DNA of 64,000 nucleotides, taken from contig JAPFFF010000011.1 in assembly GCA_039105265.1 (NCBI GenBank), positions 744,001-808,000 of the forward strand. The letters run 5' to 3'. This document shows positions 21,901 to 42,001 of the stretch, one piece after another. Within the stretch, counting starts at the first letter, position 1; each line of letters opens with the position of its first letter. Under the pieces are notes generated by a model. The model had not been told where the DNA came from and ran no database searches. It saw only the letters and a program-made list of their open reading frames with translations. The stretch comes from Tritrichomonas musculus. Lineage: Eukaryota; Parabasalia; Tritrichomonadida; Tritrichomonadidae. A program made the position numbers and the translations under genes.

Positions 21901-21906
21901 TATCAA

Positions 21907-23187: not shown

Positions 23188-23197
23188 CGAGGTGTAA

Positions 23198-23413
23198 ATG
23201 AGTTTCAACACAAGAACTAATGCATATAGATCGAACAATTCAGTTATCGTATCTGGACCTGGTACGATGTATAATGAAGTAACTAGACCTAGATCAAATA
23301 CCAAACAATATTATGCTAATACTAACACACATGATGTAACCGCACCATATATAAAGTCAAGTAATAGTCGCAAATCAAAGTCAAGTAATAAACGCAAATC
23401 ATCACGTAAGTGA
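23198..23413 (+). CDS. Small Ser/Asn/Lys-rich protein (71 aa)
   Basis: Unrecognised. The tail is a repeated basic serine-rich run (SSNSRKSKSSNKRKSSRK), typical of DNA-binding or core proteins. The centre has GPGTMYNEVTRP, which resembles GTTGCMYNEST in the Mav-E protein at 53691, so the two may be related. Lies 10 bp after the preceding gene. Confidence 0.5.
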   Translation: MSFNTRTNAYRSNNSVIVSGPGTMYNEVTRPRSNTKQYYANTNTHDVTAPYIKSSNSRKSKSSNKRKSSRK

Positions 23414-23446
23414 ACATTATTGACTTTTTATTTTTGTGTATTTCAA

Positions 23447-24115
23447 ATGTCCAAATATGTTACTGGCATGAAGCGCAATCAAATCATTCAACGTTGGTTG
23501 CAAGGCATTGATGATGAACAATATGAAGTGTTCCCTACTAAGAAAGAGGGTAAGTACATTGTTAAACAACGAAAGCAACCACTCATTCATAGAGATAAAT
23601 CATCAGACAACCTCAATGGTATGCTTGAATCAAGTGATAACTCCAATGTTAACTCAAGTGATAACTGCATCAGAGATGTAGCTGCTGGCAAAGTCAGTAA
23701 CTCCAATGATAAACCGCCATCACAACATGAGGAAGCACAACCTACGCATACACCAACACGCATACCTAATAGAGTCAAACAACATTCAACACAACATACA
23801 ACATCACCACCACATCAAGTTGCCACACATGATACAACCATTAACTTAGAGATACTTGAACAGCTACGTTCATTAGGTGAAGAGCTACGTAATGATCGCT
23901 TCAAGCGTGAACAAAAACAATACATTAAACATGTCGTTAATAAAGAATTATCAAAGCCACGCATACGAAGTAAGTACGTACCTGATCTATTACCAACTGA
24001 TGATATACATGACCCACCACATGAATCACCACATGATCCATCTCATGACCCACCACAAGAATCACCTGATGTTATTGAATCAACACCATCGTTTAGATCG
24101 CGTATCAGGCGTTAG
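23447..24115 (+). CDS. Conserved Maverick protein before the capsid gene (222 aa)
   Basis: Start taken at 23447 (TTTCAAATG after a T-tract) because the Mav-E homologue (51411) begins at the same point. Conserved N-terminus: RNQIIQRWLQGIDDEQYEVFPTKKEGKYIVKQR. A low-complexity middle and a conserved helical block (TINLEILEQLRSLGEELR...REQKQYIKHVVNKELSKPRIR) follow, then a Pro/His/Asp repeat tail (HDPPHESPHDPSHDPP). Position directly upstream of the major capsid gene in both elements suggests a scaffold or internal virion protein. Function unknown. Confidence 0.6.
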   Translation: MSKYVTGMKRNQIIQRWLQGIDDEQYEVFPTKKEGKYIVKQRKQPLIHRDKSSDNLNGMLESSDNSNVNSSDNCIRDVAAGKVSNSNDKPPSQHEEAQPTHTPTRIPNRVKQHSTQHTTSPPHQVATHDTTINLEILEQLRSLGEELRNDRFKREQKQYIKHVVNKELSKPRIRSKYVPDLLPTDDIHDPPHESPHDPSHDPPQESPDVIESTPSFRSRIRR

Positions 24116-24150
24116 CTTATGTAATACATTCGTATTTTTAATTCATCCAA

Positions 24151-25767: not shown

Positions 25768-25826
25768 ATGAATTAACTAAATCACATTATCATTTTTAAC
25801 ATTAATCACTGTTTGCTTTGATTCAA

Positions 25827-26015
25827 ATGTCATCACATAGTGTTCAAGTCATGTCGTACAAACAACATGTAACTAAGCAACAACCCATCACACAACCTAA
25901 GTTCAAGCACCCAGCTACACATCATAAAGAGAACCTATCAGCAGTTGATGGGAAAGCTAATAAGGTTAATGCAAAGCAATTAATATTGTATAAAGATGAT
26001 GTCAACTCATATTAA
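25827..26015 (+). CDS. Small Lys/Gln/His-rich protein (62 aa)
   Basis: ATG at 25827 in a TTCAAATG context after a T-rich leader. Basic, with no recognised domain. The end (LSAVDGKANKVNAKQLILYKDD) is faintly like the end of the Mav-E gene 53691 (LAAIQGLANERDKANLIYNKP), which also follows the capsid gene. Probably a small virion protein. Confidence 0.45.
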   Translation: MSSHSVQVMSYKQHVTKQQPITQPKFKHPATHHKENLSAVDGKANKVNAKQLILYKDDVNSY

Positions 26016-26080
26016 CTTAACGAAACATCATGAGTGTATTAACTTAACAGATTGTGTAAAAATGTTTTTGTTTAATTCAA

Positions 26081-26605
26081 ATGATTAAGAAGCGACCACT
26101 AAACAATGGTGTAAATGCAAACGTCAGTCTTGAGCCAGCAGCTGCAGCACAATCAAACAACAATATTAACAACAACATATTCATCAACAAGCGTGATGAT
26201 GGCAAAGAAGATATCGTTATCACACGTGATATTCAACTTGATACACCACATGATAGTATTGATGTTGATGTTAAGGTACTCATACTTGAAACGTATGCTA
26301 AGATACTACTTGACAATGACAAAGCATTGATCAGCAATCTCATCAGTAAGCGCACTATCATCGTACCACAGCAAGCATTAGCAGCAATCATCAAGGCAGT
26401 CACTCATGGTGAGGTTGAGATATATGTCGATGACAACCCTGGTTGTTGTGTAGGTAAAGCATCACCCATTCAAAAGGTAGACGCCATTAAGATAATCAAA
26501 GATAATGGTGAGATTGTTACTGACTTCAAACAGGTATACAATAAAGAGTTCAATGATCTCGTTAATGTTTATCACTTATGTTTGAAGTATGTTGTTGTAT
26601 GTTGA
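26081..26605 (+). CDS. Conserved Maverick accessory protein (174 aa)
   Basis: Family member also at 55200 (Mav-E) and 4760 (Mav-A). N-terminus NAxVSLEPAAAAQS with an Asn-rich run, then KRDDGKEDIVITRDI and a ~110-residue conserved domain (LETYAKILLDNDKALISNLISK ... IIVPQQALAAII ... CCVGKASPIQKVDAIKII ... FKQVYNKEF). It ends just before an internal tandem repeat array and the convergent fibre gene. TCAAATG context. Unnamed family; kept in three elements, so functional. Confidence 0.6.
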   Translation: MIKKRPLNNGVNANVSLEPAAAAQSNNNINNNIFINKRDDGKEDIVITRDIQLDTPHDSIDVDVKVLILETYAKILLDNDKALISNLISKRTIIVPQQALAAIIKAVTHGEVEIYVDDNPGCCVGKASPIQKVDAIKIIKDNGEIVTDFKQVYNKEFNDLVNVYHLCLKYVVVC

Positions 26606-26688
26606 GTCATCACTCAAGTCATCACTCAAGTCATCACTCAAGTCATCACTCAAGTCATCACTCAAGTCATCATTCAAGTGATAGCTCA
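26606..26688. repeat. 12-bp tandem repeat between convergent genes
   Basis: About six copies of GTCATCACTCAA, slightly decayed at the right end. The unit is nearly the same as the TIR subterminal repeat (CTCATGTCATCAC), so the same motif occurs at both ends and inside the element. Confidence 0.7.
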
Positions 26689-26723
26689 AGCAGTATATAA
26701 AAACATAGGAGTTATTTTTACGT

Positions 26724-29700
26724 TCACAACAATGTATGTATTACATTCTTAGTGTTATCTTCAAGTAAGATACCATTTGATGTAAAGAATGTAGAATTAA
26801 TGTTTATGTAATTAGCTGTTGCATTTATTGCGAAATTGCTACTACTTAATGGAAATTCAATATTGTTTAACCAGATCTTAGTTGGTTCACATTGATATTC
26901 AAACTTAGGTGTATTATTAACGTTGAATGATATATTGATTTTGATTTCCCTTTCACTAGCAACATTATCTTTGGTTTCATTATAAGTCAAATAGAGTGTT
27001 CCATCATATGCGTCAAGTTGTTTCTCGAATTGATAACGAATGATATTACTATTCGCTACGCTGAATGTGTACTTGATTCGTGTTAAGCTATTCACCAATG
27101 CATCTAACCTAGCTCTTAATGATTCATTCTCATGCTGTAGATTTGTTATCTGATTAGTCATTGTTACTAATTTAGCAACATGATCACCTACTATATAAGA
27201 TAGATCTTGATAAGATTTAGCATATGAATCCAACTCACTCTTCAATGCATATCCATCGAGATCATCTATAGTAACATAATCATCTGGCATATCACTCTTC
27301 AACATGTACTCATTCAATGTTGATGTCAACTGTGATGTCGTAACATGATTGGTTGGTATCTCACTCTTCAATGCTATTTTATCATGCTTCAATATTTTTT
27401 CCGCTGATATTAATTTGGTATCAAAATAGTCTTCCCCATTATCGATGTAAAAGCATTGACCATTACTATCGCTTTTATAATAGATCAAGTTATAGGTTGT
27501 TCCATCAATTTCAACATCGACATTAACTCCATCTTCAGTAATAACACCATCATAGTCAAATGTATAGTCAAACACTTTTACAAAGCCATCGTTATTTGAT
27601 ATTGTTCCAACAAGGTGAATTCCATTAGTCAATGTTATTTTGACTTCCCACGATCCAGAGCTATCTTGTACGTTTTCAAATGGCACATCGACAGCATCGT
27701 TATATATCAAATCTGTCTTTAATCGATAATTAGATAAATCATTCATGTTAATCATATTGTTTTTTAATTCATCCAATGCTGTGTTAACCTCATCAACAGT
27801 TGGAAAGTCATTCAACGTTTTAGCAAGTGACTCATCGTTCAACTCAAGTTGAGCACGTAATGAATCAATGCTTTTATTCACTGCGTCAATGTCACATGTA
27901 TATGCTAAATCATTCGTTGTAAGTGTCAATTGTCTAACCGATGTGTTTTCTTTAACAGTTATGCTTGTGACCTGTACATTGTGTGGGTTGTTAATCGTAA
28001 TGACGTTGCCACTCATCGTTGCCGTTGGAAATGTATCTGTACCATTGAACTCAGCTATTGCATCATCCACAATGTTGATTGTAACATATTGTTCATCATA
28101 GTCAATGTCATTGAACTCGCTAATCGTTCTAACCATGAGTTTGACTTTAAGTACACCACTTGTGATTGTGTCTTCAGCTATGAGTTGAATTGTTTTACCG
28201 TCAACCTTGCCAACAACATCAATGGTATCATTACGTGCTAACTCATTCTTGTTAACATAACCATCCATCTGAACAGATACATCACTGATTGCATTTGCCA
28301 ATGCTTTGATGGTTGGCTTGAGTGTATGTCTGAATCGTTTACACATGTCCATTGTTGATGTCAATGTCATTGCCACTTTAGATGGATCATCGAGTTCATC
28401 ACTGAAGTTCATCTCAGTTACTGGTATGTATTCTTCATCACACCATTGAGCTATCTTAGTAAGCTTGTCATGAGTGCTAACTTGAGCTTCATCTTGAGTT
28501 GCATCGTTAGTTACACTTAACGTTGCCGTCTTAGCACCACTAACTAAGTCACCGAAGAATATATCAGAGCCAATATCAGGTAGTTCATCAGTCAGCTTAC
28601 CTACCATGTCATCCAATACATCAGCTCCAACATCACTAGCTTTAGTTATGGTGTTAACTAACTCACGACCACCTGATTTGACAGCTGAACCAACACCCTT
28701 CGTTGCAAATGATAATGCTTTACCAGCAACACCTATGCCAGTGGCACCTAACACACAGCCAACAGCACCTAACGCAATACCAACATTTGCTTTCATATCA
28801 ATCTTATCAACTTCCTTCTCAAGGTATTTAGTCTTAGCTTGTTGGTCAGTCATCTGCGAGCCAAGTGCATCAACCTTAGATTGCACTTCCTTAACATCAT
28901 ACGATACTACATCAACGTTGTTAGTAACGAGATTCAAGTCAGATCTCATTGTAGTGATATTGTCAGCAGTGATTATCTTCGATGATGTAATGTTGAAGTC
29001 AGTGTATAGTGTTGTAGCTGAGTTTGGATTAGGTGACACTTCATAGAACTGTTGCTTGATGATGTATTCGAATGCATTTGTAGATGGATCCCAATTAACT
29101 TCATCAATAGGATCAGTATAATCATGACGAAGGTATAATGCAATATCACGTGGTGTTAAGCCATCATCATTGCTGGTTTGAGTGGGTGTCTTACTCCATA
29201 CATATGCCACTCTTTCGACTGTATCAAGTGCTCCACTTAAATCAACGTATCCTCTATCATATACATCATTTTTATTATGAACTTCACCGACTGTGAATGA
29301 TAACCTCATGGTATGCTCTTGATGTGGCAACGTCAAGTCAAGGTATAGTAATTCAATGTCGCTTACTTTGAGTGTTGATGTTGAGTAATTATTATATGTA
29401 CAACTCATTGCAACCAAATCATAACCATCCATCGTTGCACCATTGAGTATAAATGAATAGCCAATGTTGAGTTCATACTCAGATGCATTAACCAATCTAC
29501 CATCACGCAACTTAATCAGTACCTCATACTTACCATCATTGCGGCATGTGTTGAGTAGTGAATATGCTAAGCCACGTGTTTTGTCTTCAGGTATTGCTCT
29601 GTAATTCAACGTATCACGCTTGACTGCAACCATACAACCAGTTGAACCATAGTTATCTGCCTTAGGATCACGTGTTTTACACTTGCTGATGACCTTGCTT

Positions 29701-32700
29701 TGGAACCTACCTTGAATACTGTCACCAACCCACTTGTTACCATCCCATGTCAATGCCCATGTGTTGCCAAAGCAGTACTCACTAAATTTGAACGTTAAGT
29801 TGGTTGGTATGTCATACGTTGATGGTATCTTATACACCATTCGATAGCACTCACATTCATACTCAAGTTGTTCATTCGCAAACATGTCAGTGTACTTAAC
29901 ATGTTCATCATAGTCAATCATTGATGGTCGATAGAAGTAATATGTGTCAGAGCGTTGTAACTTCAATGCATTAGTTGCATCTATGATGTCACACTTGATG
30001 GTTGGCTTGCATGATACCAATGCATCTGATGAGAGTAGGTTGTGAATCACTATGTCACCATTCAAGAAGCGTATGTATGGTTCAATATTGAAGTCACTTG
30101 CAAACATTATCTCAGGATCATCTCGTTTGCGTGTTGAGTATGTGCAACAATCACGTGCTACGTTGTGTGTCAACTCTGGGCAGATGAACTTACCATCTTT
30201 AGCTGATATGATGAAGTCATTTAAGATGTTACCTTGCCAATCAAATAATAACATGTTGCGTAAGTGAATCTTAAACACATCAACTGGTTTGGTAGCAGCA
30301 GTGAGTTTGTTTTTGAGTGTGGTTGGTAGTGTTATCTTCATGATTATGACTGGATCATTAACTGGATCATCAACATTCGTTTCACTGCTAACAGTTGGCG
30401 TATACACTGTTATGTCATCATGCTTGACGTAGTAATCAGGATAACCTTCAACTGCATTAAACTCACCTGAACTTGGTAGCTGACCTGATGATTTACTTTC
30501 AACATCTTTGATCTTATACGCGAGCAATGCAAGTGGACCTTTGATGGTATCTCTGAATGCTTTACATATGTTTACACATGAGTTTAATGAGATTGCCTCA
30601 TTTGTATCATCAGGTAATGATATATCAATGCCATTGCCAGTGCACCACTCAATGATTGCATCAAGACCATCATCATAAGTGGAGTATGTTGCATTATCAA
30701 CTTCAGAAAGTAATGCAAGTGTTTCTTCACCTGCTTTGTGAATCAAACGAGGGATGTATAACAACACATCAACGATTGGAATTAATATGGATGAACCACG
30801 TCCAACGATAATACGGTTAGTTGAATTAGGATTATCTAATAACCATTCAATGTTATTGTTGATGCGTTCTATTCGATCAGTGATGTTTGATATGAAGCCA
30901 CGTAATGTTTGACGTATTGTTTGCTGCTGTTCATCATGTTGACGTACCCATGCTATGTCACTATCAGTGAGTACGAGACTGGTATGTGGATTGGAAATGG
31001 TTATGTGATTATCATCTATTGATACTTGATTGAGATGTCTACGATCAATCACGCCAATGACGTTGTTATTATATAATACTTCAGTGTACTCCTCATCAGC
31101 ATCATTTAACGTTGGAACATGTGGTCTGAAGCGTATTGCTGGATTCTCAATGGTTAACCTACGTCGTTCATACCAAACCATCTGTTCAATGTCAGCCAAC
31201 GTGAGTGTTGTATTTGGAATTGTAACTGAGCCATCTGTAGTTGGTGTTAACTCATGAGTTGATACGACAACATTATGTTCGTTAGCAACTAACTCATGTA
31301 CTTCATCCTGTCCTGTTGCGTTGATATCACCTTGCTGCATACTGATGCCGTGTGAGTTGATCGTGATATTTGACTCAGGACTATGAATTGATATCTCATC
31401 ACTGCTAACATCAGTACTAACTGCTATTCTCACATCAATGACTGCTTGAATGGAACCATTCATGTCCCTCACTTCAGTCCAGCTAACTCCCATCTCATTA
31501 TCAACGTTGCGTGTGAATATATACTCTGGATGTGATGATTCAAATTGATACCTCTCATCTGGTTCCATGCGTTCGATCTGAGCTGCTGTATATACCGTAC
31601 CATTGTCATTGACACTCCACATTGAGTTGGTATTAACACTTCTCATTGTGCGTAAGCTTAATTGTTGTGATGTTAACGTGCTGCTTTCATTATCAATTCG
31701 TCTCATGTATATTATCTTATTAACACCCTTATCATTAACACGTGTTACATATATCAAGCCAAATCGATTGTCACCTACTCGTCTAACCATGATATCACCT
31801 ATTTGTGGACCTTCAATTGGATCGTATGTGTTCAAATCAAGTAGTTCATCTATTGATAGGTTTGATAATGATTCAATGGTATGATCACCGAATAATGGTT
31901 GACTAAAAGCTGATGTATTGGTAACTGTTTCATGAGTCAATCTAACGCATGGAATATTATTTACTTCTTCATTTGTATCATCTTCATCTAACTCCATCTC
32001 ATCAGTGTTAGTAATTGTATGATCGACAATGGTATTGTTGTTAGTTCGTTCTCTCCATCTGCGTCGCAACTCATGTATTGAATCAGTGAACGTTTGTAGT
32101 GATTGATATATCGTTCGTGTGTTATCAACTATGGTTGGTATACGATCGAATGTAAGTCCACCTGCAATTAATGTGGTAGTTGCATTACCTATTTGAGTTA
32201 ATGATTCTAATGCACTTAACACAAGTGCTGTTGCAGTTAATGATGATGTTGCTGCAGGTGTATCTGTTTGAGATGGTAGGTATCTGCTAAACTGTTGACC
32301 AAATGCATTAGCTGCATACTTAAGTAAGAACTGACCAACGATATCTATGCCTGGGAACTTGCCACCGCCGCCACCACCACCTGAACCACCACTAGGAAAG
32401 TCAGGGAAGTGAAAGTCTTCTGTATGAGTTGTGTTTAATGCCATACTCTCACTGTCAAATGAGAACTCAGATAATGCTGTTGCAATTTTAATAGCACCTG
32501 ACACAATGCTTAATACATTCTTAGTTATAGTTATATATTTTTGAAGGTCATTGACATAGTTATTGTATTTAGCTTGTAACCTCATCTGTTCTTGAATAGA
32601 ATTGATGATTGCTTTCAAGATAGCGTAGTCGTATGACAACACATCAAGTGTACCACCAACAACGTTAAGATCACGTCGCATTGTCATGATGTTATCAGCC

Positions 32701-33776
32701 CATATGATTTTGGATGAGAATATGTTATGATCTGTTGTTAATGTAGTGCAGTTACGTGGATCTGGTGTTACTTCATAGAATTGCTGTGAGATGATTGTAT
32801 CGAATGGATTGTAGTTTTCATCTGCGTTTTCAGGTAGTTGTTCGAAGTAATCTTTCTCAATGTATATGTTAATGTTCTTCTTAGTTGATGGTTCGATTAT
32901 CTTATTTGAGTGTCTGACTCTACGTTCATATCTAAATGATTCAATAACAACACTGTCATCCCATGTGTTAATGAATGATGCATCGATTGGTGTAACTGGA
33001 TGCATGTCCCATCGTAATGGTGTGGTAAAGTCGTCAATAACAATGTCAGCCATGATATAAAGTAGTTTCTTACTCGATACTTTGCTTGTTAACTTGACGG
33101 AGAAGTAATGTATATCACATGGAACATCTTTAATAGCAATCTGAGATGATGATGTTGGTGTAATTTTACTGTTTGAATCATTCAACTCGATTATAGTTCC
33201 ATCACCATATACCAAACGCCAGTTTTGAATGTACTTGCATAGTGCTGTTGCATAGTTAGTATCTGATGACACTTCTTCAAAGCTGCTTAACCATCTGGCA
33301 ATGCGTTCAGTGTGTTGTACATAAATATATGGTCTTCCTTTTTTACTTTCGTATGTTGATAGCTTAGCATATGAGTTATTCACAACGTTATCACCTGTCC
33401 ATGAATCACCATCCCATATCAATGACCATGCATGGTTGAAGAGATGATCAATGAATGTGAAGTTAGTATGTAGTGGTATGTTGTAATCTGGATCGATGTT
33501 CCATGTCATGACGTAGTACTTTGACGTTTGACTTATGGATGATGGTTTGTATAGGTAAAGCTGATCTGATTCTTTGAGTGTGAATTGAGTATTGTCTTTA
33601 ATGGTTGTTTGCATTGATTGTAATGCGTCATCGATTTCTTTCTTAGTATAGATGCAATTGATATGTACATCATCTGTTTTACCATAACGTGTTAATTTTA
33701 CTTCGCCATTACGTATTCTCATATCATAACCTTTATCATTGAGTGATAGTGCTTGAGCTGCAAGTGGTGTTATCAT
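26724..33776 (-). CDS. Giant fibre/spike-like protein with internal duplication (2,350 aa)
   Basis: Longest gene here. Two related halves are visible: the module FNHAWSLIWDGDSWTGD recurs as FGNTWALTWDGNKWVGD. The block CTTLTTDHNIFSSKIIWADNIMTMRRDLN recurs as ATTLYTDFNITSSKIITADNITTMRSDLN, each leading into a coiled coil. The first half then has a poly-Gly stretch (GGSGGGGGGG). The second has a hydrophobic Gly/Ala segment (VGIALGAVGCVLGATGIGVAG) and ALKSDIP/ALKSELD shaft repeats. A further coiled coil and a C-terminal head (YTFSVANSNIIRYQFEKQ) follow, shared with Mav-E. A virion-surface spike is inferred; no enzymatic motif seen. It starts 14 bp from the divergent gene at 33791. Confidence 0.75.
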   Translation of the reverse strand: MITPLAAQALSLNDKGYDMRIRNGEVKLTRYGKTDDVHINCIYTKKEIDDALQSMQTTIKDNTQFTLKESDQLYLYKPSSISQTSKYYVMTWNIDPDYNIPLHTNFTFIDHLFNHAWSLIWDGDSWTGDNVVNNSYAKLSTYESKKGRPYIYVQHTERIARWLSSFEEVSSDTNYATALCKYIQNWRLVYGDGTIIELNDSNSKITPTSSSQIAIKDVPCDIHYFSVKLTSKVSSKKLLYIMADIVIDDFTTPLRWDMHPVTPIDASFINTWDDSVVIESFRYERRVRHSNKIIEPSTKKNINIYIEKDYFEQLPENADENYNPFDTIISQQFYEVTPDPRNCTTLTTDHNIFSSKIIWADNIMTMRRDLNVVGGTLDVLSYDYAILKAIINSIQEQMRLQAKYNNYVNDLQKYITITKNVLSIVSGAIKIATALSEFSFDSESMALNTTHTEDFHFPDFPSGGSGGGGGGGKFPGIDIVGQFLLKYAANAFGQQFSRYLPSQTDTPAATSSLTATALVLSALESLTQIGNATTTLIAGGLTFDRIPTIVDNTRTIYQSLQTFTDSIHELRRRWRERTNNNTIVDHTITNTDEMELDEDDTNEEVNNIPCVRLTHETVTNTSAFSQPLFGDHTIESLSNLSIDELLDLNTYDPIEGPQIGDIMVRRVGDNRFGLIYVTRVNDKGVNKIIYMRRIDNESSTLTSQQLSLRTMRSVNTNSMWSVNDNGTVYTAAQIERMEPDERYQFESSHPEYIFTRNVDNEMGVSWTEVRDMNGSIQAVIDVRIAVSTDVSSDEISIHSPESNITINSHGISMQQGDINATGQDEVHELVANEHNVVVSTHELTPTTDGSVTIPNTTLTLADIEQMVWYERRRLTIENPAIRFRPHVPTLNDADEEYTEVLYNNNVIGVIDRRHLNQVSIDDNHITISNPHTSLVLTDSDIAWVRQHDEQQQTIRQTLRGFISNITDRIERINNNIEWLLDNPNSTNRIIVGRGSSILIPIVDVLLYIPRLIHKAGEETLALLSEVDNATYSTYDDGLDAIIEWCTGNGIDISLPDDTNEAISLNSCVNICKAFRDTIKGPLALLAYKIKDVESKSSGQLPSSGEFNAVEGYPDYYVKHDDITVYTPTVSSETNVDDPVNDPVIIMKITLPTTLKNKLTAATKPVDVFKIHLRNMLLFDWQGNILNDFIISAKDGKFICPELTHNVARDCCTYSTRKRDDPEIMFASDFNIEPYIRFLNGDIVIHNLLSSDALVSCKPTIKCDIIDATNALKLQRSDTYYFYRPSMIDYDEHVKYTDMFANEQLEYECECYRMVYKIPSTYDIPTNLTFKFSEYCFGNTWALTWDGNKWVGDSIQGRFQSKVISKCKTRDPKADNYGSTGCMVAVKRDTLNYRAIPEDKTRGLAYSLLNTCRNDGKYEVLIKLRDGRLVNASEYELNIGYSFILNGATMDGYDLVAMSCTYNNYSTSTLKVSDIELLYLDLTLPHQEHTMRLSFTVGEVHNKNDVYDRGYVDLSGALDTVERVAYVWSKTPTQTSNDDGLTPRDIALYLRHDYTDPIDEVNWDPSTNAFEYIIKQQFYEVSPNPNSATTLYTDFNITSSKIITADNITTMRSDLNLVTNNVDVVSYDVKEVQSKVDALGSQMTDQQAKTKYLEKEVDKIDMKANVGIALGAVGCVLGATGIGVAGKALSFATKGVGSAVKSGGRELVNTITKASDVGADVLDDMVGKLTDELPDIGSDIFFGDLVSGAKTATLSVTNDATQDEAQVSTHDKLTKIAQWCDEEYIPVTEMNFSDELDDPSKVAMTLTSTMDMCKRFRHTLKPTIKALANAISDVSVQMDGYVNKNELARNDTIDVVGKVDGKTIQLIAEDTITSGVLKVKLMVRTISEFNDIDYDEQYVTINIVDDAIAEFNGTDTFPTATMSGNVITINNPHNVQVTSITVKENTSVRQLTLTTNDLAYTCDIDAVNKSIDSLRAQLELNDESLAKTLNDFPTVDEVNTALDELKNNMINMNDLSNYRLKTDLIYNDAVDVPFENVQDSSGSWEVKITLTNGIHLVGTISNNDGFVKVFDYTFDYDGVITEDGVNVDVEIDGTTYNLIYYKSDSNGQCFYIDNGEDYFDTKLISAEKILKHDKIALKSEIPTNHVTTSQLTSTLNEYMLKSDMPDDYVTIDDLDGYALKSELDSYAKSYQDLSYIVGDHVAKLVTMTNQITNLQHENESLRARLDALVNSLTRIKYTFSVANSNIIRYQFEKQLDAYDGTLYLTYNETKDNVASEREIKINISFNVNNTPKFEYQCEPTKIWLNNIEFPLSSSNFAINATANYININSTFFTSNGILLEDNTKNVIHTLL

Positions 33777-33790
33777 TTACCATTGATAAA
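33777..33790. promoter_or_regulatory. 14-bp shared start region of divergent genes
   Basis: Only 14 bases separate the ATGs at 33776 (-) and 33791 (+), so each gene's T-rich leader must lie largely inside its neighbour's first codons. This is unusually tight even for this compact element. Confidence 0.4.
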
Positions 33791-34549
33791 ATGATACTTT
33801 CATTGAAGAGCAATGGTCCAGACTACAATCGCATACGTGCTAACATACAAATACCATGGAACTGTCAATATATTGAGTATTATGTTGCGGCAATCAATAC
33901 AAAGAATGTGTTACTTATATCACATGATGATAGTATAACATATGAGTGGGATGATAATGATTTAGCACATACACATCACGTCAGCACAATGAGCTTGGAA
34001 GATAGATACTATTCAATGCCAAGTGATATACCTGATTTATTTAATGTGAATGATGCTAATGGGCGACCGATTATGAATGTACAATTGAATAACAATACTA
34101 ATGTCATTAAGTTAACCCCACATGTTGACAACTTCACTATCAAATCAATGTCACATCGTATAGCATTGATAACAGGATTGTATAACACGCCACTTAACCA
34201 ACCGTTAGCAAATGGTAGAGCAACACAATGCGACATTCCGATAATAGACTACGCTAACAAGCTATACTTGATATCAAAGCAAGGTCAAGCTATACAATCC
34301 AACTTGGGTGATGTTGAGTATACACCATCAGTGATAGCAAGCATCGATCATATCATTCGTTATGGCTTACCAATCATACAGAACTTTGAAACGTATGGTA
34401 AACCAATTAAAAATGTTGTTAATATCGATTCATTCAAACAGATTGAGTTGGAGTTGGTTGACTTTGAATATCAGCCAGTTAAGTTGATGTCACCTATGTT
34501 TGTTACGATTAAGGTCAACCCATGTGATCCACCTAAGATGAAGCTGTAA
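33791..34549 (+). CDS. Putative virion protein (252 aa)
   Basis: ATG at 33791 is preferred over an upstream in-frame start inside the divergent gene. The sequence looks beta-rich with aromatic patches (ANIQIPWNCQYIEYYVAAINTKNVLLIS at the start, FVTIKVNPCDPP at the end) and has no catalytic motif. No counterpart is seen within the visible part of Mav-E. Could be a second capsid-associated or jelly-roll protein, a guess from composition and position next to the fibre gene. Confidence 0.5.
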   Translation: MILSLKSNGPDYNRIRANIQIPWNCQYIEYYVAAINTKNVLLISHDDSITYEWDDNDLAHTHHVSTMSLEDRYYSMPSDIPDLFNVNDANGRPIMNVQLNNNTNVIKLTPHVDNFTIKSMSHRIALITGLYNTPLNQPLANGRATQCDIPIIDYANKLYLISKQGQAIQSNLGDVEYTPSVIASIDHIIRYGLPIIQNFETYGKPIKNVVNIDSFKQIELELVDFEYQPVKLMSPMFVTIKVNPCDPPKMKL

Positions 34550-34560
34550 AAATGATTGAT

Positions 34561-34806
34561 CTATTTTTGATCACTGCTAATGTTGGTTGTTACACTAGCT
34601 TTAAATGCACGCAACTCAATGAGCTCTTGCTTTTTACGTTCACGGTACTGCTTTTGTTGTTGTCTTCTAGCATTGATACGTTCTTCATCAGTGAGGTAAA
34701 GCTTTTTACGACCACGCTTTTTAGGTTCGTTATCAATACCCTGCTTTGATTTAAGTGATTTAACAACAGCAGTATCGTTAAACAATTCAGTGTTGATGCT
34801 TGACAT
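34561..34806 (-). CDS. AT-hook plus bZIP-like basic-region protein (81 aa)
   Basis: KKRGRKK near residue 28 is an AT-hook-like motif. ERINARRQQQKQYRERKKQELIELRAF then resembles a basic region followed by a short heptad, as in bZIP proteins. Homologous to the Mav-E protein at 56729 (PRGRRCKYANDDERRTARRQQQREYRLRKK). Likely a sequence-specific DNA-binding regulator or an AT-rich DNA-compacting protein. The start is supported by a TTTTTTATCTCATAGCAAATG context. It diverges from the structured RNA at 34938. Confidence 0.6.
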   Translation of the reverse strand: MSSINTELFNDTAVVKSLKSKQGIDNEPKKRGRKKLYLTDEERINARRQQQKQYRERKKQELIELRAFKASVTTNISSDQK

Positions 34807-34937
34807 TTGCTATGAGATAAAAAATCATATTATGAAATGTGATATGAAAACAAATGAAAAAATTTTAAGTGTTTATAATGATATACATTATGTAATGTAG
34901 TGGGAATGGTTTAAATATCATATTGCAACTAACTAGT

Positions 34938-35279
34938 GTCTGGCCAGACGTGGTACAGTGGTTGAGTCATGAAGCGTGTCTCCCAGCTTCGGCGGCAGGC
35001 ATGAGTTCGATTCATAGCAGTACCGATTTTTCGTGTTATTTTATCACACTTGTGATGGAGCCTGTAGCGAATCAACACCTAAGGTAAGCCATTGCTTGTG
35101 ATATGTGTAACACGAAAGCATCTACTAGTAGGTGTATCTTTGTAATGAACGTGTTAAATCACGTTCCCCAACCATAGTGTGTGTAGTTCCTTTCCTGTGA
35201 GGGGTTGATGTACAATCCCGGGTACGTATGTTGATTCCTCATCGAATGCATAACACACTCACGAAGACGGTTGGTTTTT
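34938..35279 (+). ncRNA. Conserved structured RNA, Mav-B copy (~342 nt), novel
   Basis: Homologous to 55743-56067 on the minus strand of Mav-E, with pairing kept by compensatory changes. Stems in order: GTCT/AGAC around GGCC (34938-34949); GGTAC 34952-34956 with GTACC 35020-35024; an inner stem around CAGCTTCGGCGG; CGTGTTA 35032-35038 with TAACACG 35108-35114; AACGTG/CACGTT (35148-35165, Mav-B only); CCAACC 35168-35173 with GGTTGG 35269-35274; AGTGTGT 35176-35182 with ACACACT 35253-35259; GGGGTT 35201-35206 with AATCCC 35214-35219. TGGTACAGTGG and GAGTTCGATTC resemble tRNA A and B boxes. T5 runs stand at 35027 and at the very end (35275-35279), as for RNA polymerase III terminators. Flanked by no coding frame. 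Not a canonical tRNA. Function unknown. Confidence 0.65.
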
Positions 35280-35340
35280 GCACTTTTGTTTTTGCATTTG
35301 CATGACATGTTGAAGTGAACACTTGCGGTGTTACATGATG

Positions 35341-35508
35341 TATAACATAGTGTATCACTTAATGTATAACATAGTGTATCACTTGATGTATAACATAGTG
35401 TATCACTTGATGTATAACATAGTGTATCACTTAATGTATAACATAGTGTATCACTTGATGTATAACATAGTGTATCACTTGATGTATAACATAGAGTATC
35501 ACTTGATG
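35341..35508. repeat. Seven perfect-period 24-bp tandem repeats
   Basis: Unit TATAACATAGTGTATCACTT(G/A)ATG, seven copies with at most two variable positions. It lies between the structured RNA and the HNH gene. The open frame through it is an artefact of the repeat length being a multiple of three. Confidence 0.85.
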
Positions 35509-35542
35509 CTTATTATCAAACACTAACTTTAACTTACACCAA

Positions 35543-36079
35543 ATGAGTTACGTTGATTTAATCGATCATCCTGATTATGAAATCTTAAACGAATACCCAT
35601 TCACCATTCGTCGTAAGGACAACCATCATGAAATGCATGAATATTATCAACATGGTTATGTGTATGTTAGTATGAACCACCATAAGAAGTATAGAAAGCA
35701 TCGATTAATAGCAAAGCAATTCATACCAAACCCTCATCACTTACCAGAGGTAGATCATATTAATAACAATCGTTCAGATAACCATTTAACAAACTTACGA
35801 TGGGTAAGTCCTAAACAGAATATGCTTAATAGATCAGGCTATGGTCAAATCAAATATGAATATGTTAATGACTTACCAATTGATGTTAAGCCAATCATCA
35901 TGTATAAGCAATGGGAGTTTGAAGGGTATTGCATTGATGCAGATGGTAATGTATGGTTTGATAATGGTGAACGATTTCGTAAATTGCATGTTAATAAACA
36001 TAATGTGGTAGCAATGTATGATATAAATCATAAGCAACATAATGTAAGCATTTTAGCATTGCGACGTGAATATATGTAG
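35543..36079 (+). CDS. NUMOD4-HNH homing-type endonuclease (178 aa)
   Basis: The N-terminal NUMOD4-like segment (YEILNEYPFTIRRK) is followed by an HNH core: HRLIAKQFIPNPHHLPEVDHINNNRSDNHLTNLRWVSPKQNMLNR. It keeps the HR, DHI-N-R and NLRWV signatures of phage and intron homing endonucleases. A C-terminal ~70-residue domain (IKYEYVNDLP...) is shared with the Mav-E enzyme at 57209. It probably nicks or cuts DNA; whether for gene mobility or element rivalry is not known. Free-standing, with no intron around it. Confidence 0.8.
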   Translation: MSYVDLIDHPDYEILNEYPFTIRRKDNHHEMHEYYQHGYVYVSMNHHKKYRKHRLIAKQFIPNPHHLPEVDHINNNRSDNHLTNLRWVSPKQNMLNRSGYGQIKYEYVNDLPIDVKPIIMYKQWEFEGYCIDADGNVWFDNGERFRKLHVNKHNVVAMYDINHKQHNVSILALRREYM

Positions 36080-36130
36080 TAACGTTTTTGATTCATGCCA
36101 ACATTGAAGTGATGACCAAAAATGAATCGT

Positions 36131-36583
36131 TTAAACTACATCATTAGTAGCATCTCTCAACGCATCGACTGAGGTTTGTTCATTGAGTTTACTTCTATAT
36201 TCATTGATGGCATCATTTGCTTTGGCATAGATTGATTCATATCGTTTCAACTCATGACGTAAGCATAACTTATCGATGTAATACTTGTAATAGGTATGTG
36301 TTTCATCATTAGTTGATGTGAATTGTCTTGGTGTTAAGTCAATGGTTAACAGCATTGGATCACGATATACTGTTCGATAACGATTCTCACGTACAGTTAT
36401 GTATGGTACCTTACCAAAGATGTTAATCAACTCATTCATGTCAATGGTTCTGTTGCCATCAATGACTAGTAATGGTCGAACACTAATGCCAAAATCAATA
36501 GGGTATATCTTACTATCAAGATAGACAATTAACTTATCATCATTAGTTGGTTTGATTGTTTGAACGAAGCTAGTGACAGACAT
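36131..36583 (-). CDS. Conserved small Maverick protein next to PolB (150 aa)
   Basis: Resembles the Mav-E gene at 56223 in length, start (MSVTS/MSVDS), a shared centre (KPLFIT/RPLLVIDGN, then IN-IIKLFG/ELINIFGKVPYI) and a charged helical end (LRHELKRYESIYAK). It lies just downstream of PolB on the same strand, so the two may be co-expressed. One speculative role is in protein-primed replication; there is no motif evidence. Confidence 0.5.
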   Translation of the reverse strand: MSVTSFVQTIKPTNDDKLIVYLDSKIYPIDFGISVRPLLVIDGNRTIDMNELINIFGKVPYITVRENRYRTVYRDPMLLTIDLTPRQFTSTNDETHTYYKYYIDKLCLRHELKRYESIYAKANDAINEYRSKLNEQTSVDALRDATNDVV

Positions 36584-36649
36584 GGTTTGTGATGCGAATA
36601 AAAATTTACATTGATGAATTGCAATGTTTTTAATTGAATTACTGTAACG

Positions 36650-39600
36650 TTACTTGAATTGAACTGTCCTGGTAAATTGTGGTAGTGTAACTTGTTGAAA
36701 TGATTTTGTCTTTCTGAAGCAGTTGCAACCATCAGTTAAGTCAAATGTAATTGCTTCACCATGATACATACGTTCATACAACTCTTCAACTGTGATGTTC
36801 ATACGCTTGCACTTGTTAATGATGCATTGCTTTGGTATTGATTTCATTCTAATGTGATAGTCTTCATTACCATGTTCATCAACGAGTATATCAAGATATG
36901 ACTTCTTACCTAATGCAATGAGCTTACGTGAGTGTATCTTACCAACTGCACCTGGGAATACATCGAAGTCACAATGAAACTGTGTCATATCACTGCCAAT
37001 TAAGTCTTTACCATATGTTGCTTTGAATAGAGCAGCTAACTTATCAACATCATCTTCATTTAAGTGCATGCTATCAGTATCTTGGTAGTATATTGCAATG
37101 TCATTCTGTTCAGCGAGTGTCATGACTTGATTCATGATGTGCTTACTCCATGATAACACTGATGCACCAAACTGTGGTAAGTTGTAGTGTTTATTAATTG
37201 GTTTAATCATCTTAACGAATACTTTATTACCACCATTGTCAACAACCTCTTTGATGTAGTTGTATTTGCGATAAATGAATGGTATGATATCATCTCTGTT
37301 AATAATCTTGACTTCATCTGTGATTGGCTTTAATATTGACTTGCCATAGATTGAGTTGAGTAACAACTTGATGGTCTTCTCAAGTGGGTTATGTTCATGC
37401 TTGTATGTTTTTCGTAACTCGAATAGTGTATCAATGAATGTGTTGATGGATGAATTGAAACCATCATTGAAGTAGTAACCACGTATGAATTCATATTCAA
37501 TATCATAAGCTGCAATCAAATCAATCAAACCAATCTTGTCAATATAGAAGTGGTCAACTGGTTGGTTGCAAAACAGTTTAGTGCCTTCTTCATTGCGTAT
37601 GAATACCTGACCAAACCTATATGGGTTAGTTGACTTACACTTTATGTGTTTGATGTTGATCTCAATGAAGAACGTATCATAACACATGAGTTGATCGTGA
37701 GTTATGTTTGATGGTATAACTTGGGGTTTACCCTTTGGTATGCCTGGCATGATGTGCATAGCTGATGGATATAAGCTGACTGCATCGAAGTCCTGTATCT
37801 TACCTTCAACATATTGCTTCTCATTGTTAGCTGTCATTGTTCTACCACCACTTACACAACGTTGGATGAAGTTCTGTGGCTTGCCTGATAGTGTGAAGCA
37901 GTCTTTAGTGCAACCATATGTGCGTGCGAAGTCGTAGCCGATTGCACTGATTGATATGTACTGGTTAATGCCTGGGAATTTGTTGTTAGCTTTCTTGAAC
38001 ACTTCATTGAGGTCATGATCAAACTTACGTATACCATTAGCGAGTGTGATGCAGTCATGTTCACAGTAGAATTGAGCATACTTCATAATATCAATCATGT
38101 GTGTGGTTTCATCATATGACTCAGCTACTTTAGCATTGATGAGTAGTTGTAAGTAAGCTTGATCGAGTTCAGATGCTGACATATCATCAATGTGTTCGTT
38201 GCGATATTGATCTTTGAATTCATCGAATGGTATCATCTTACGTTTGATGTTAGCTGCTGTGTAGAGTTTGTATGGCATGATTTCTTTATGTACATTGAGA
38301 TTGAACATATTACCGAACTGTGATAGTGGCGCTGGTATGAGTGAGTAACTGTCACGGAATGTTAAACGCTTAGTTATGTTCTTAGTTACATATGTATGTT
38401 TGACTTTATCCCACTGTTTGATGGGTATGTATTGTTTCATGACTGCTTGTAAGATGGTACCACCACGTTTAATGACACTAGCCTTCCAACCTGGTTCGTT
38501 GATGAAGAAACATACGTCATACTTAAGATTGTGGAAGTAAACCAATGAATGATTGGGTAGATCATTTAAGAATCGTTTTGCAATGTCATCACCAGTGTAT
38601 GGCTCTTTACATTTAACACCATCGTACACACAGCATAAGTATGGTTGGTGTGGTGATACAGTTACGTCTGTTTCAAAGTCAGCGTAGTAAACTGCTTTCC
38701 ATGGTGTAATATGTTTGGCATTAGATGATTCTTCTTTACAATATAACGTTTCATCATAGTCGAGTTCAATGTAATCATTCAAATGGTTGTCATACTCACA
38801 GGTTGTTAATATGTTTTGTTCACATTGATTAATCTCACGAAAGCAGTTGCATTCAAACATCTTGCGGAATACCTTAGTGAAATCATTACCTGTCCAATCA
38901 GCAGTGGTGTAAAGTGGATAGCCTGTTTGATTAACTCCTCTGATGTGAAATCGTTTTTCAACTGGTATGTCAGCATGCTTTTCATCGAGTTCATCTCTAT
39001 GTTCAATGTAATAGGTGGTGATTGGCAACTTCTCATTGTTATCAATCATGAAATGGTCTTTGTATAATAGCAACCTAACCACTCTATCAGCAGTCACATT
39101 ACTGTTCTTATGTGTGTCAATGCTTAAGTGTTTTTGATGTTTAACATCACGTGATTCATCAATGCGATATACAATGAAGTGGCATTTCATTTCACTAGCT
39201 ATTTTGAGTATCATATTGATGGGTACTGAACGTGTGTGTATCATACCACGTAACATGTCAATCTCATCTTTAGTGAATACACCTGACTGAATGCATGCAT
39301 ATACGAAGCAGTTGTCAGTATAGTTTTTGGCATCGACCTCGTGAAAGATCTGATAACGTGATAAGTCAAGTGATGGGATGAGGTTAATGTATGGAAAGAA
39401 TGCACCATCATATGAGTTGCGGAATGAATCAACTGTTGCAACATCAACATATTCACCATTAATCTTCTCTTGAAATACTGTTTTACCATTGCGTTTAGTT
39501 AACTTATAGAAGGTAACAACAAACTTAACTGGGATGTAATCAGCATTAACTTCTGGATCAGTATCAGAACCGAATTGTTCAACTGTAATGTTACCAAGTA

Positions 39601-41668
39601 TTCCATCTATTACTTCATCAATAGTTAACTCATTGTTTATTGGAAAGGATTTTAGATGTCTATCTTCATTATCATAACTTAATACACTTGCTGTGGGAAA
39701 GCGTGATCTGTTATCGCGAATATATCTCAACACTTGTATGAATGCATGTTGTGTTTCAATGTTGTTATCAATATTAACTTCGAATGCATCGTGATTATTA
39801 GCAGCAATCATCATACGTTCCAACTCATCTTGATACTTAGTTTCATCGTAGTAGTGGTCTCCATACAAGCGTTCAGCTGCATCCATAAGTGAAAGAATGA
39901 ATTCATCATCATTGTATTGGTCATCATCAATCATTTGTAGAGTGTTAATAATCGTGGATGTAGCTATGAATGTGAATGGTGTATATTCAATAACGGCATT
40001 GGTAAGATCTGTTACGTGTTCAACATCATTATTTACAGTGGTGGCATCAACATCATTCGTAGTGGCTTCATAATCATCAACTAGGATTAACTTCTGATCA
40101 TCATCTGAATCGAAATCAATAATATCATATGGTGGCATTATGTAATTACGACGGTATAACGTAAGTGAACCGCCTTTCTCAATGATAGTGATGGCATGTT
40201 TGTTGTCATCATCGTATTGATATGTTTCAACAGCAGCAATATCAAAGGTTTCAATCTCAAGGTCTGGTTCGTATTTGGACTCAGCATAGAGTTTAACGTC
40301 AATAACATCGCCTGTTTCACGTACTACCTTGTGTAGTTCAAACTTAACAATATTATCATCATCATCTTGTCCGACTTCATCAAAACAATCATCTTCAACT
40401 TCATAATCACATACTTCAATGTCGATGATGTTACCATTGCTATCATATGTAACTTCACATGGTTTAACGTCAATAGTACAATACTCAACTGATTCATCGA
40501 CGAAATCAATAGCATTAACATTAACAATCGTCAACTTAGCGTGTTCATCAATGGGTTCGTCAACGAAATCAATAGCATCAACATATTCAATCATCAACTT
40601 GGCATGTTCATCAACTGGTTCGTCAATGAAATTAACAGCATTAACATCTTCAATCATCAACTTAGCGTGTTCATCAATGGGTTCAACTACTTCTTCACTA
40701 TGTGTTGTGTTATTAAGTGGTTCATCAACTAGTTCAATAGCGTCAACATCATCATCGTTAAGTTGTGCATCATCTTCATCATTATCATGTGTTGCATCAT
40801 CGTTAAGTGGTGTTGCATCATCATCTAATGTAGGTTCTTCTTCATCTGATGCTAATTCGTCATCGTTAAGTGATGCATCATCGTCATCGTTAAGTGTTGC
40901 ATAATCATCATCTAATGTAGGTTCTTCTTCATCTGATGCTAATTCGTCATCGTTAAGTGATACATCATCGTCATCGTTAAGTGTTGCATAATCATCATCG
41001 TTAAGTGGTGTTGTATCATTGTCATCGTTAAGTGATGCGGAATCGTCATCGAAAAGTGAATCACCCATGTCATAAAATGCAGACTCATCTTCAGCTGATG
41101 CTAACTCGTCATCGTTATGTGTTGCATCATTGTCATCGTTAAGTGGTACTGTAACTGGTGCTGTGATGGTAGCATCATCGTCGTCGAATATAATTTCAAC
41201 ATCATCATCGTTAAGTGATGCATCATCGTCATCGTTAAGTGGTGTTGTAACTGGTGTTGTGATGGTAGCATCATCGTCATCGAATATAATTTCAACATCA
41301 TCGTTAAGTGATGCATCATCGTCATCGTTAAGTGGTGTTGTAATGGTAGCATCATCATCGTCAAATATAAGTTCAACATCATCGTTAAGTGATGCATCAT
41401 CGTCATCGTTAAGTGGTGTTGCAATGGTAGCATCATCATCGTCAAATATAAGTTCAACATCATCGTCTTCGTCAAGTGATGCGGTATCGTCATCGTCAAA
41501 TATGAGTTCAACATCATCGTCAAGTGGTGTATCAATGTTATCGTATGATGGGATGACGTCATTACTATGTTCGGATATGATGAGTGAGTCGTTATCAATG
41601 TATGTGGTTGTGTCCTCATCATAAGTGCAGTTTTCAATTGCGATTAATTCGGATATGGCGAATGGCAT
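36650..41668 (-). CDS. polB: Protein-primed family B DNA polymerase, extended (1,672 aa)
   Basis: Order of parts: an acidic repeat region of Asp/Asn/Leu units (about residues 45-330), then a DNCFVYACIQSG ... LLYKDHFMI module (Cys ~783, His ~869) that looks like a papain/OTU-type peptidase fold. Next come Exo I YADFETD (~996), Exo II YFHNLKYD (~1046) and Exo III YCEHDC (~1203). Polymerase motifs follow: A DFDAVSLYPSAM (~1298), B KLLLNSIYGKS (~1438), C YYQDTDSMH (~1529) and ALGKKSYLD (~1589). All catalytic residues are present. It copies the element from terminal protein primers. The start has a TTTTTTTATCACCACACAAATG context. Its start lies about 330 bp inside the right end. Confidence 0.95.
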   Translation of the reverse strand: MPFAISELIAIENCTYDEDTTTYIDNDSLIISEHSNDVIPSYDNIDTPLDDDVELIFDDDDTASLDEDDDVELIFDDDDATIATPLNDDDDASLNDDVELIFDDDDATITTPLNDDDDASLNDDVEIIFDDDDATITTPVTTPLNDDDDASLNDDDVEIIFDDDDATITAPVTVPLNDDNDATHNDDELASAEDESAFYDMGDSLFDDDSASLNDDNDTTPLNDDDYATLNDDDDVSLNDDELASDEEEPTLDDDYATLNDDDDASLNDDELASDEEEPTLDDDATPLNDDATHDNDEDDAQLNDDDVDAIELVDEPLNNTTHSEEVVEPIDEHAKLMIEDVNAVNFIDEPVDEHAKLMIEYVDAIDFVDEPIDEHAKLTIVNVNAIDFVDESVEYCTIDVKPCEVTYDSNGNIIDIEVCDYEVEDDCFDEVGQDDDDNIVKFELHKVVRETGDVIDVKLYAESKYEPDLEIETFDIAAVETYQYDDDNKHAITIIEKGGSLTLYRRNYIMPPYDIIDFDSDDDQKLILVDDYEATTNDVDATTVNNDVEHVTDLTNAVIEYTPFTFIATSTIINTLQMIDDDQYNDDEFILSLMDAAERLYGDHYYDETKYQDELERMMIAANNHDAFEVNIDNNIETQHAFIQVLRYIRDNRSRFPTASVLSYDNEDRHLKSFPINNELTIDEVIDGILGNITVEQFGSDTDPEVNADYIPVKFVVTFYKLTKRNGKTVFQEKINGEYVDVATVDSFRNSYDGAFFPYINLIPSLDLSRYQIFHEVDAKNYTDNCFVYACIQSGVFTKDEIDMLRGMIHTRSVPINMILKIASEMKCHFIVYRIDESRDVKHQKHLSIDTHKNSNVTADRVVRLLLYKDHFMIDNNEKLPITTYYIEHRDELDEKHADIPVEKRFHIRGVNQTGYPLYTTADWTGNDFTKVFRKMFECNCFREINQCEQNILTTCEYDNHLNDYIELDYDETLYCKEESSNAKHITPWKAVYYADFETDVTVSPHQPYLCCVYDGVKCKEPYTGDDIAKRFLNDLPNHSLVYFHNLKYDVCFFINEPGWKASVIKRGGTILQAVMKQYIPIKQWDKVKHTYVTKNITKRLTFRDSYSLIPAPLSQFGNMFNLNVHKEIMPYKLYTAANIKRKMIPFDEFKDQYRNEHIDDMSASELDQAYLQLLINAKVAESYDETTHMIDIMKYAQFYCEHDCITLANGIRKFDHDLNEVFKKANNKFPGINQYISISAIGYDFARTYGCTKDCFTLSGKPQNFIQRCVSGGRTMTANNEKQYVEGKIQDFDAVSLYPSAMHIMPGIPKGKPQVIPSNITHDQLMCYDTFFIEINIKHIKCKSTNPYRFGQVFIRNEEGTKLFCNQPVDHFYIDKIGLIDLIAAYDIEYEFIRGYYFNDGFNSSINTFIDTLFELRKTYKHEHNPLEKTIKLLLNSIYGKSILKPITDEVKIINRDDIIPFIYRKYNYIKEVVDNGGNKVFVKMIKPINKHYNLPQFGASVLSWSKHIMNQVMTLAEQNDIAIYYQDTDSMHLNEDDVDKLAALFKATYGKDLIGSDMTQFHCDFDVFPGAVGKIHSRKLIALGKKSYLDILVDEHGNEDYHIRMKSIPKQCIINKCKRMNITVEELYERMYHGEAITFDLTDGCNCFRKTKSFQQVTLPQFTRTVQFK
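40480..41560 (-). repeat. Coding trinucleotide/minisatellite repeats in PolB N-terminus
   Basis: Tandem units encoding DDDATI-TPLNDDDDASLNDDVE and, nearer 40480-40700, VDEPIDEHAKLMIE-type repeats. The DNA is a GAT/ATC-rich minisatellite that stays in frame. It is not shared with the Mav-E polymerase, so it expanded in this lineage. Confidence 0.8.
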
Positions 41669-41737
41669 TTGTGTGGTGATAAAAAAATTGACACGCTAAA
41701 AAAAATTAGGGTGAGCTTAATTGAAAAAAGTAGTGTG

Positions 41738-41996
41738 TTTACAGTTGAACCACGTTATGTGAACCGTTGTGTGACGTGATATGTGGCGTGTGACATGAGG
41801 TGATGACATGAGGTGATAACATGAGGTGATGACATGAGTTTAATGTGAGGTGATAACATGAGGTGATGACGTGAGGTGGCGACATGAGGTTTCATATTGA
41901 AAGTGCTATGATCTAGAAATGTCAAAAGGTATGGAGTTTCATCTTAAGGGGGGCAGATGATACGTAGTATCAGACGCCACCCTTAGGGTATCTACT
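41738..41996. repeat. Right TIR of Mav-B (259 bp)
   Basis: Reverse complement of 19279-19537, ending GGGTATCTACT. Contains the same CATGAGGTGATGA/CATGAGGTGATAA subterminal tandem repeats in inverted orientation. Confidence 0.95.
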
Positions 41997-42001
41997 TGAG
42001 A
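41997..42001. repeat. Right target-site duplication TGAGA of Mav-B
   Basis: Matches 19274-19278. Removing one copy plus the element restores the Mav-C polymerase frame. Confidence 0.85.

Follow-up and report, generated by a model that had tools for sequence, protein, structure and literature searches.

Elements of the Maverick/Polinton lineage are often placed near the root of the adenoviruses. Adenovirus VA RNA, a small RNA encoded by the virus, carries within its sequence a box B for polymerase III and has double-stranded rods that contain G-U pairs (PMC6599070). The predicted RNA described here, from Maverick-like elements of Tritrichomonas musculus, likewise has an embedded box B and G-U-bearing double-stranded rods, but it differs from VA RNA in its several separate hairpins, an internal T5 run, an upstream TATA-like box and self-complementary loops. 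It is about twice as long as VA RNA, and no Rfam match relates the two by covariance model. The packaging RNA of phage phi29 belongs to a protein-primed genetic element, is encoded near the packaging ATPase, and joins its copies via loops; the loops of the Maverick RNA could also join copies, but its gene does not lie beside the ATPase gene.

In descriptions of the TMER RNAs of murine gammaherpesvirus 68 (MHV68), a promoter module for polymerase III at the 5' end precedes the hairpins (PMC8223928), an order also seen in the Maverick RNA, whose 5' module, however, lacks a tRNA cloverleaf according to ARAGORN. Retroviral genomes begin to dimerise at an apical loop that contains a short palindrome (PMC5874298). 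Apical-loop palindromes are found in the Maverick RNA as well, but here in a small RNA gene with three such loops, all predicted from sequence. Mavericks are reported to make up about one third of the Trichomonas vaginalis genome (PMC10120064), and the non-coding RNAs listed in one survey of polinton-like viruses are tRNAs, group I introns and members of other Rfam families (PMC12220804). The RNA treated here is another case of a non-coding RNA gene in such related elements, but one without an Rfam match. No paper naming such a Maverick RNA was found in the openly licensed literature, and the family is apparently undescribed.

An RNA-like block in two Maverick-like elements

The window, a stretch of 64,000 nucleotides from contig JAPFFF010000011.1, contains copy B of the block at 34938-35279 on the forward strand and a diverged copy E at 56067-55743 on the reverse strand, which align over 426 columns with 71% identity (E 5e-45). 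A profile made from 55 copies matches the window at E<=10 at 34936-35279 (+) and 56069-55743 (-) and at no third place, and no open reading frame (ORF) of at least 100 aa from ATG overlaps either copy. An earlier, sequence-only reading had proposed a shared non-coding block in both elements, and the identity of the copies and the two profile matches confirm it. That a structured RNA gene is present is, in our view, close to certain.

Comparison with known families was negative. Rfam 15 gave no match above the gathering cut-off in any part of the window; when E values up to 10 were admitted, three weak matches appeared in each of the B and E regions, the best at E 0.27 and all below gathering, and six other loci (L084, L045, L062, L144, L146 and L093) gave none at E<=1, in agreement with the proposal of a new family. 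The 5' domain, D1, was considered as a tRNA and rejected. ARAGORN finds no cloverleaf, as the sequence-only reading had held, and the best similarity to the host tRNA loci fetched has an E value of 0.75. No relatives were found in viral contigs, searched with two exact patterns and the ATPase protein, or in prokaryote genome contigs, searched with one pattern.

Copy B lies within a Maverick-like element (19278..41997) bounded by 260-bp terminal inverted repeats (TIRs) that are 100% identical. The 12 ORFs of element B scanned against Pfam include a type-B DNA polymerase (DNA_pol_B_2, E 2e-33) and an A32-type ATPase (Pox_A32, E 1.7e-5); none of the 12 matched a retroviral-type integrase, which may be too diverged. 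No duplication of 4-11 bp was found by script at the called TIR edge, and with the edge shifted by one base a 5-bp duplication, TGAGA, is visible by eye. Element E is related to B, nine of its ORFs matching a B ORF at 34-70% identity. Elsewhere the window contains an inverted repeat at 13407-15127 (367-nt arms, 97% complementary, 987 nt apart), a pair of perfect 59-nt inverted arms 147 nt apart at 46844-47108, 5' of the first E ORF, and, outside element B, a sulfatase-like gene at 15834-17333 (Pfam PF00884, E 3.1e-14) that is perhaps a host gene.

The family-B RNA is located between the ORF at 33791-34549 and an HNH endonuclease gene (35543-36079) that has a coverage of 0.10 in 20 family-B copies and is therefore probably an optional insert. 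The family-E RNA is found between the ORFs at 55200-55730 and 56223-56681. In the L009 family, the RNA is near homologues of window ORFs 317-4597 and 4760-5461, and at that position the window has a gap of ~160 nt with no RNA by profile search. Orientation and neighbours of the RNA vary between element families. Its varying place, and its absence from the piece of a related element at the window's left, suggest an optional module that has been moved or lost. Within families B and E its neighbours recur, which speaks against independent insertion of the SINE type. In other families (e.g., L014, L045, L084) the flanking ORFs show no relation to window genes, except for a KilA-N relative beside L106; the RNA copies of these and similar families are likely also in Mavericks.

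Predicted domains and their copies in the genome

The predicted order from 5' to 3' is D0 (a 4-bp hairpin), D1, D2, D3, D4, D5 (with a 12-nt apical loop) and a T5 run. In copy B, all on the forward strand, the TATA-like TTTAAATA (34910..34917) lies 27 nt upstream of D0, the 12-bp palindrome GTCTGGCCAGAC with loop GGCC (34938..34949). D1 (34952..35024) is the 5' module, a UUCG-capped hairpin with an A-box-like motif at 34959-34969 and a B box at 35005-35013. A T5 run at the D1/D2 boundary (35027..35031) gives its final two T to the stem of D2 (35030..35116), a stem-loop of ~90 nt with a conserved inner loop. D3 (35118..35135) is a short hairpin with loop CUAG at 35125-35128, D4 (35147..35166) another hairpin, and D5 (35168..35274) a long rod with CCCGGG in its apical loop (35217-35222), after which come the terminal T5 (35275..35279) and a second T run. 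Copy E, on the reverse strand, has a TATA-like TTTAAATA read from the sequence (56089..56096), D0 with GTTAGCGCTAAC and loop GCGC (56056..56067), D1 (55982..56054; B box 56001-55993), D2 (55884..55976), D3 with loop UCGG at 55877-55874 (55868..55883), the long rod D5 (55748..55858; CCCGGG 55806-55801) and the terminal T5 (55743..55747). E-type families have no D4.

Individual folds of 19 distinct copies are concordant for most domains; the exceptions are E-type D0, for which RNAfold favours a shifted pairing, L045-type D3, and the two copies with inserts in D5, L040 and L064. The sequence-only reading had quoted six stems as pairing in both copies with different bases. Complementarity holds for all of these strand pairs, yet in both copies at once just two of them are the favoured helices: GGTAC/GTACC in B against GGTAT/ATACC in E, and CGTGTTA/TAACACG in B against CGTATTAT/ATAATACG in E. 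GTCT/AGAC is favoured in B, but in E RNAfold puts the shifted GTG/CGC ahead of GTTA/TAAC; similarly, CCAACC/GGTTGG is favoured in B, but E prefers AAAACCAGC/GTTGGTTTT over CAACCC/GGGTTG. For AGTGTGT/ACACACT, copy B pairs in another register (GTG/CAC, GTGT/ACAC), and the E stem has 15 bp. The hairpin GGGGTT/AATCCC is a less stable alternative. Among 13 copies examined, the small hairpin (GGGATT/AATCCC) is possible in 12, and in 12/12 the long rod is more stable, by 1.1-7.6 kcal/mol; the small hairpin was thus rejected as the main fold. Loops that had been called invariant have exceptions, as CAGCTTCGGCGG is replaced by GGGCTTCGGCTG in some copies and CCCGGG by CCTGGG in L144.

The genome searched is a 193-Mb assembly of 746 contigs. 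Its triosephosphate isomerase shares 194/251 residues (77%) with the best Protein Data Bank match, 3qsr, the T. vaginalis enzyme, which makes the host apparently a trichomonad distinct from T. vaginalis. When <=3 mismatches are allowed, a D1 30-mer matches 178 places, against 0 for the reversed control; a D5 20-mer matches 189 (reversed control 3), and a D2 motif 329 with <=1 mismatch (reversed-pattern control 3), so that by these patterns the observation is above chance level. A total of 102 loci (L009-L110) were taken, 77 by exact D1 and 25 by exact D5; with the two window copies they make 104 records at 103 places, L038 being copy B. As loci were selected by D1, D5 or the D2 motif, likeness within the selecting motif is not evidence. 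D1 and D5 are both present in 97/104 records, spaced 195-259 nt apart. Full copies, for which the criteria include D1 with <=6 mismatches and terminal GGTTGGTTTTT with <=2 mismatches, number 96 of the 104, and 59 of the 96 are distinct. The eight others (L020, L039, L054, L057, L090, L093, L103, L108) carry a deletion, truncation or interruption or run into the end of a contig. Clustering the 104 records at 93% identity gives 12 groups, five of them single records, with broken copies among these. The anchors were passed by 57/59 distinct full sequences (L013 and L106 were dropped), and the 55-copy alignment also leaves out L046 and L050, which have no D3. Three loci added by the D2 motif (L144-L146) bring the set with the 96 full copies to 99 records.

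Several irregular copies were observed. L054 has D1 only, without the palindrome and D2-D5, and its upstream flank matches the L014 family. In L093 a stretch of ~100 nt next to D2 (L093:424-525) is found elsewhere too, e.g. at G000 C29:1041664-1068531. It was considered as a second kind of 5' module and rejected, since at least 40 places match among the 40 of 325 candidates scored; these include 14 +/- pairs with spacings of 3.3-26.8 kb, 11 of which fall within 23-27 kb. Its occurrence in inverted pairs leads us to read the stretch as probably the terminal repeat of another element that replaced D1 by insertion or recombination. Tandem mini-hairpins are inserted in L040, L064, L090, L014 and L043, in L090 exactly at the UUCG loop of D1 and in the others in D5. 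One such short double-hairpin insert, searched as a candidate mobile element, has only 6 genome places at <=3 mismatches, at least 3 of them inside RNA copies, which suggests that the inserts grew out of loops of the RNA itself.

Covariation, strand preference and constraint

Covariation was assessed by an alignment-free swap test, in which for each domain the 5' half from one family is paired with the 3' half from another; without selection for pairing, native and swapped halves would be equal. The copies, which include L144 and L146, were hand-selected and some are closely related. For D2, the end of which was set by pairing of its first 9 nt (a milder bias), the native pairing won 33 of 36 comparisons and lost none, the rest being ties, and 2/20000 permutations equalled or exceeded the native value. 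The corresponding figures are 26:0 of 36 (3/20000) for D3 and 14:0 of 15 (2/720) for D4, both of which had strands chosen as folded hairpins and hence a bias toward native pairs, and 43:0 of 45 (0/20000) for D5, the halves of which were cut at sequence anchors. An earlier set, in which the script misplaced the D3 loop of the L045/L080 type, gave 30:0 of 36 for D2, 26:0 of 28 for D3 and 50:0 of 55 for D5. The covariation first proposed from two copies thus holds with more of them, in that native halves of D2-D5 are never worse than cross-family ones, D1 excepted: D1 as a whole has no covariation (23 comparisons for and 28 against, of 55), so the quoted stems are unequally supported. What is conserved in D1 is its sequence, the pattern expected of a promoter or of a site bound by protein.

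The sense strand folds more stably than its reverse complement in 11/11 copies, by 22-38 kcal/mol. The sense folds have 16-30 G-U pairs each, with z-scores of -1.8 to -5.9 against 60 dinucleotide shuffles (11 copies). DNA palindromes would favour both strands alike, and the consistent preference for the sense strand argues for selection on RNA; an explanation by DNA palindromes only was rejected on this ground.

Constraint was measured in 15 family-B copies selected via the neighbouring gene B9, with the window copy as reference. D2 and D5 have 0.0033 and 0.0025 mismatches per aligned base, and D0-D1 outside the selecting 30-mer 0.0188; the flanks have 0.0738 (B9 ORF), 0.0620 (upstream intergenic) and 0.134 (downstream, with 46% of bases aligned). 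The neighbouring gene and the upstream flank thus vary 19-30x more than D2 and D5, but D3-D4, at 0.0603, are no less variable than the flanks. Within family B, variation is highest in the downstream stretch, and a 24-bp tandem repeat is present at window:35333-35508, just 3' of copy B. A 20-copy count, in which some copies were ranked by likeness to the RNA, had the same outcome. In eight E copies the values are 0.0013 for D1, 0 for D2 and 0.0088 for D5, as compared to 0.0093 and 0.0068 for two ORFs, so that D5 is no more constrained there than the ORFs. Gene conversion could be an alternative cause of the likeness among copies, but it would need to stop near the edges of the RNA. The fold of D2-D5 is kept by compensatory change on the sense strand, in an RNA with hundreds of copies and strong constraint in family B. 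A predicted fold that stays constant across many Maverick copies despite letter changes points to a working RNA.

Putative transcription signals, self-complementary loops and possible roles

Type 2 genes of RNA polymerase III have a consensus of an A box, a B box and a terminal T run. Upstream of the RNA, 84/96 full copies have TTAAATA/TTAAATC with its first base 24-25 nt ahead of the cut start, which is 34936 in copy B; by this pattern 8/96 have no such box. The B box GTTCGAT(T/C)C is present in 22/22 full copies selected by D5 alone and in 96/96 overall, 74 of these being D1-selected or window copies. The A box matches poorly in the most frequent families, and in L040 3 nt of it are missing. 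T5 follows D1 in 95/96 full copies, with T4 instead in L144, L146 and L054. The terminal T5, which was also a selection criterion, is present in 95/96, and a further run of at least 4 T occurs within 35 nt of the RNA end in 96/96. Nine distinct host tRNA genes likewise terminate on a T run, of 5-8 T, with a second run, judged by eye, in eight; their first run is T5 in 2/9, both with a longer run just behind. Synthesis by RNA polymerase III is plausible from these motifs. Termination might already occur at the T5 that follows D1, in which case the RNA of those families may consist of D1 only. The upstream sequences of two host U6-like genes, both under the gathering score, were compared by eye as a match to the RNA promoter, and nothing convincing was seen.

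A feature absent from the sequence-only reading is the presence of three self-complementary loops, in D0, D3 and D5. D0 is a perfect 12-bp palindrome in 96/96 full copies, in two states; its loop is GCGC in 74 and GGCC in 25 of 99 records and is self-complementary in all 99. The D3 loop is CCGG in 46 records, UCGG in 42, CUAG in 5, UCGA in 3 and CCGA in 1, and is absent in 2; with G-U allowed it is self-complementary in 96 of the 97 records with D3, the exception being CCGA in L015. The D5 hexamer is CCCGGG in 98/99 records and CCUGGG in one, L144; of the 99, 22 were selected by that motif and 77 were not, and L144-L146 were read individually. UCGG and CCUGGG self-pair solely via G-U, i.e., as RNA. 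In 7 of 12 copies shown, RNAfold pairs some bases of the D5 hexamer within a mini-hairpin of 3 bp, and the loop states are few and related by descent. The loops suggest RNA dimers, as a lead rather than proof.

The reading we prefer, with a confidence that falls a little short of even, is that of a Maverick-encoded structured RNA of ~340 nt, probably made by polymerase III, which would act in trans in the manner of VA RNA, perhaps as a dimer. The likeness to VA RNA is drawn because of anatomy: a box B inside the gene is combined with long, imperfectly paired double strands, and the element has a type-B polymerase. Host RNA polymerase III would make the RNA, to judge from the TATA-like box, the B box in D1 and the T5 end, and the self-complementary loops would let two or more molecules join. 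In a weaker step, the long double-stranded rods of D2 and D5 might occupy a host factor for dsRNA handling or silencing during expression of the element. An anti-silencing decoy of this kind has a possible target, because a putative RNase III and two PIWI-like Argonautes are reported for T. vaginalis, along with small RNAs that cover 3,188 of 3,551 Maverick integrase genes and 1,069 of 1,491 polymerase genes (PMC7845603). The decoy role is argued from analogy and is the less secure part of the proposal.

The loops could instead belong to an RNA with an architectural or packaging task in the particle of the element, in which copies join and bind a capsid or motor protein on a principle like that of phi29; this we consider improbable. 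Their self-complementarity, including pairs that form only as RNA, favours it, but the D5 mini-hairpin would compete with dimers, the few loop states reflect shared descent, CCGA of L015 is an exception, and the related element piece at the window's left has no RNA at the L009-family position. In addition, phi29-type motors belong to a different ATPase family. The distance between the RNA and the ATPase gene is 12.2 kb in B and 4.9 kb in E, and the place of the RNA varies between families, so the packaging analogy raised in the sequence-only reading gains no support from position. A broader idea, that molecules joined via up to three loops assemble for the Maverick particle or for defence against silencing, is possible but on balance unlikely; a regulatory or replication RNA that acts on the element's genes or its protein-primed replication, e.g. 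as a polymerase III antisense or licensing RNA, is as improbable as the packaging role. It would fit the location of the B and E RNAs in the polymerase-gene part, beyond the gene runs B1-B7 and E1-E9, but not the variation of orientation and neighbours between families.

Two further alternatives concern the nature of the gene itself. D1 could be a polymerase III RNA of ~95 nt ended by T5, with D2-D5 a separate structure, e.g. within the leader of another transcript. The nearly constant T5 after D1, set beside the 2/9 host tRNA genes with T5 as first run, and the conservation of D1 by sequence, unlike the covarying D2-D5, speak for this division. Against it, D1 and D5 keep company in all but seven of the 104 records, L144 and L146 have only T4 at the boundary yet keep D2-D5 and the terminal T5, and the D2 stem includes the final two T of that run; the division is rather doubtful, if less so than the packaging or regulatory roles. 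By far the least probable is a DNA feature that merely resembles RNA, such as protein-binding palindromes or a recombination or replication site: the palindromic D0, and several D3 copies that are perfect palindromes too, would suit it, but not the greater stability of the sense strand in all 11 copies compared or the many G-U pairs. The strand result is silent on D0, which on its own could be a DNA site beside the RNA gene.

Under the preferred reading of a VA-like RNA, a constrained RNA in Mavericks that is an orphan with respect to Rfam makes it testable whether VA-type viral RNAs have a greater age or a wider distribution than has been assumed. We know of no earlier multimerising non-coding RNA in Polintons, and a self-assembling RNA, if true, would be the first. 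The Maverick RNA may also help to show how such elements cope with silencing by the host.
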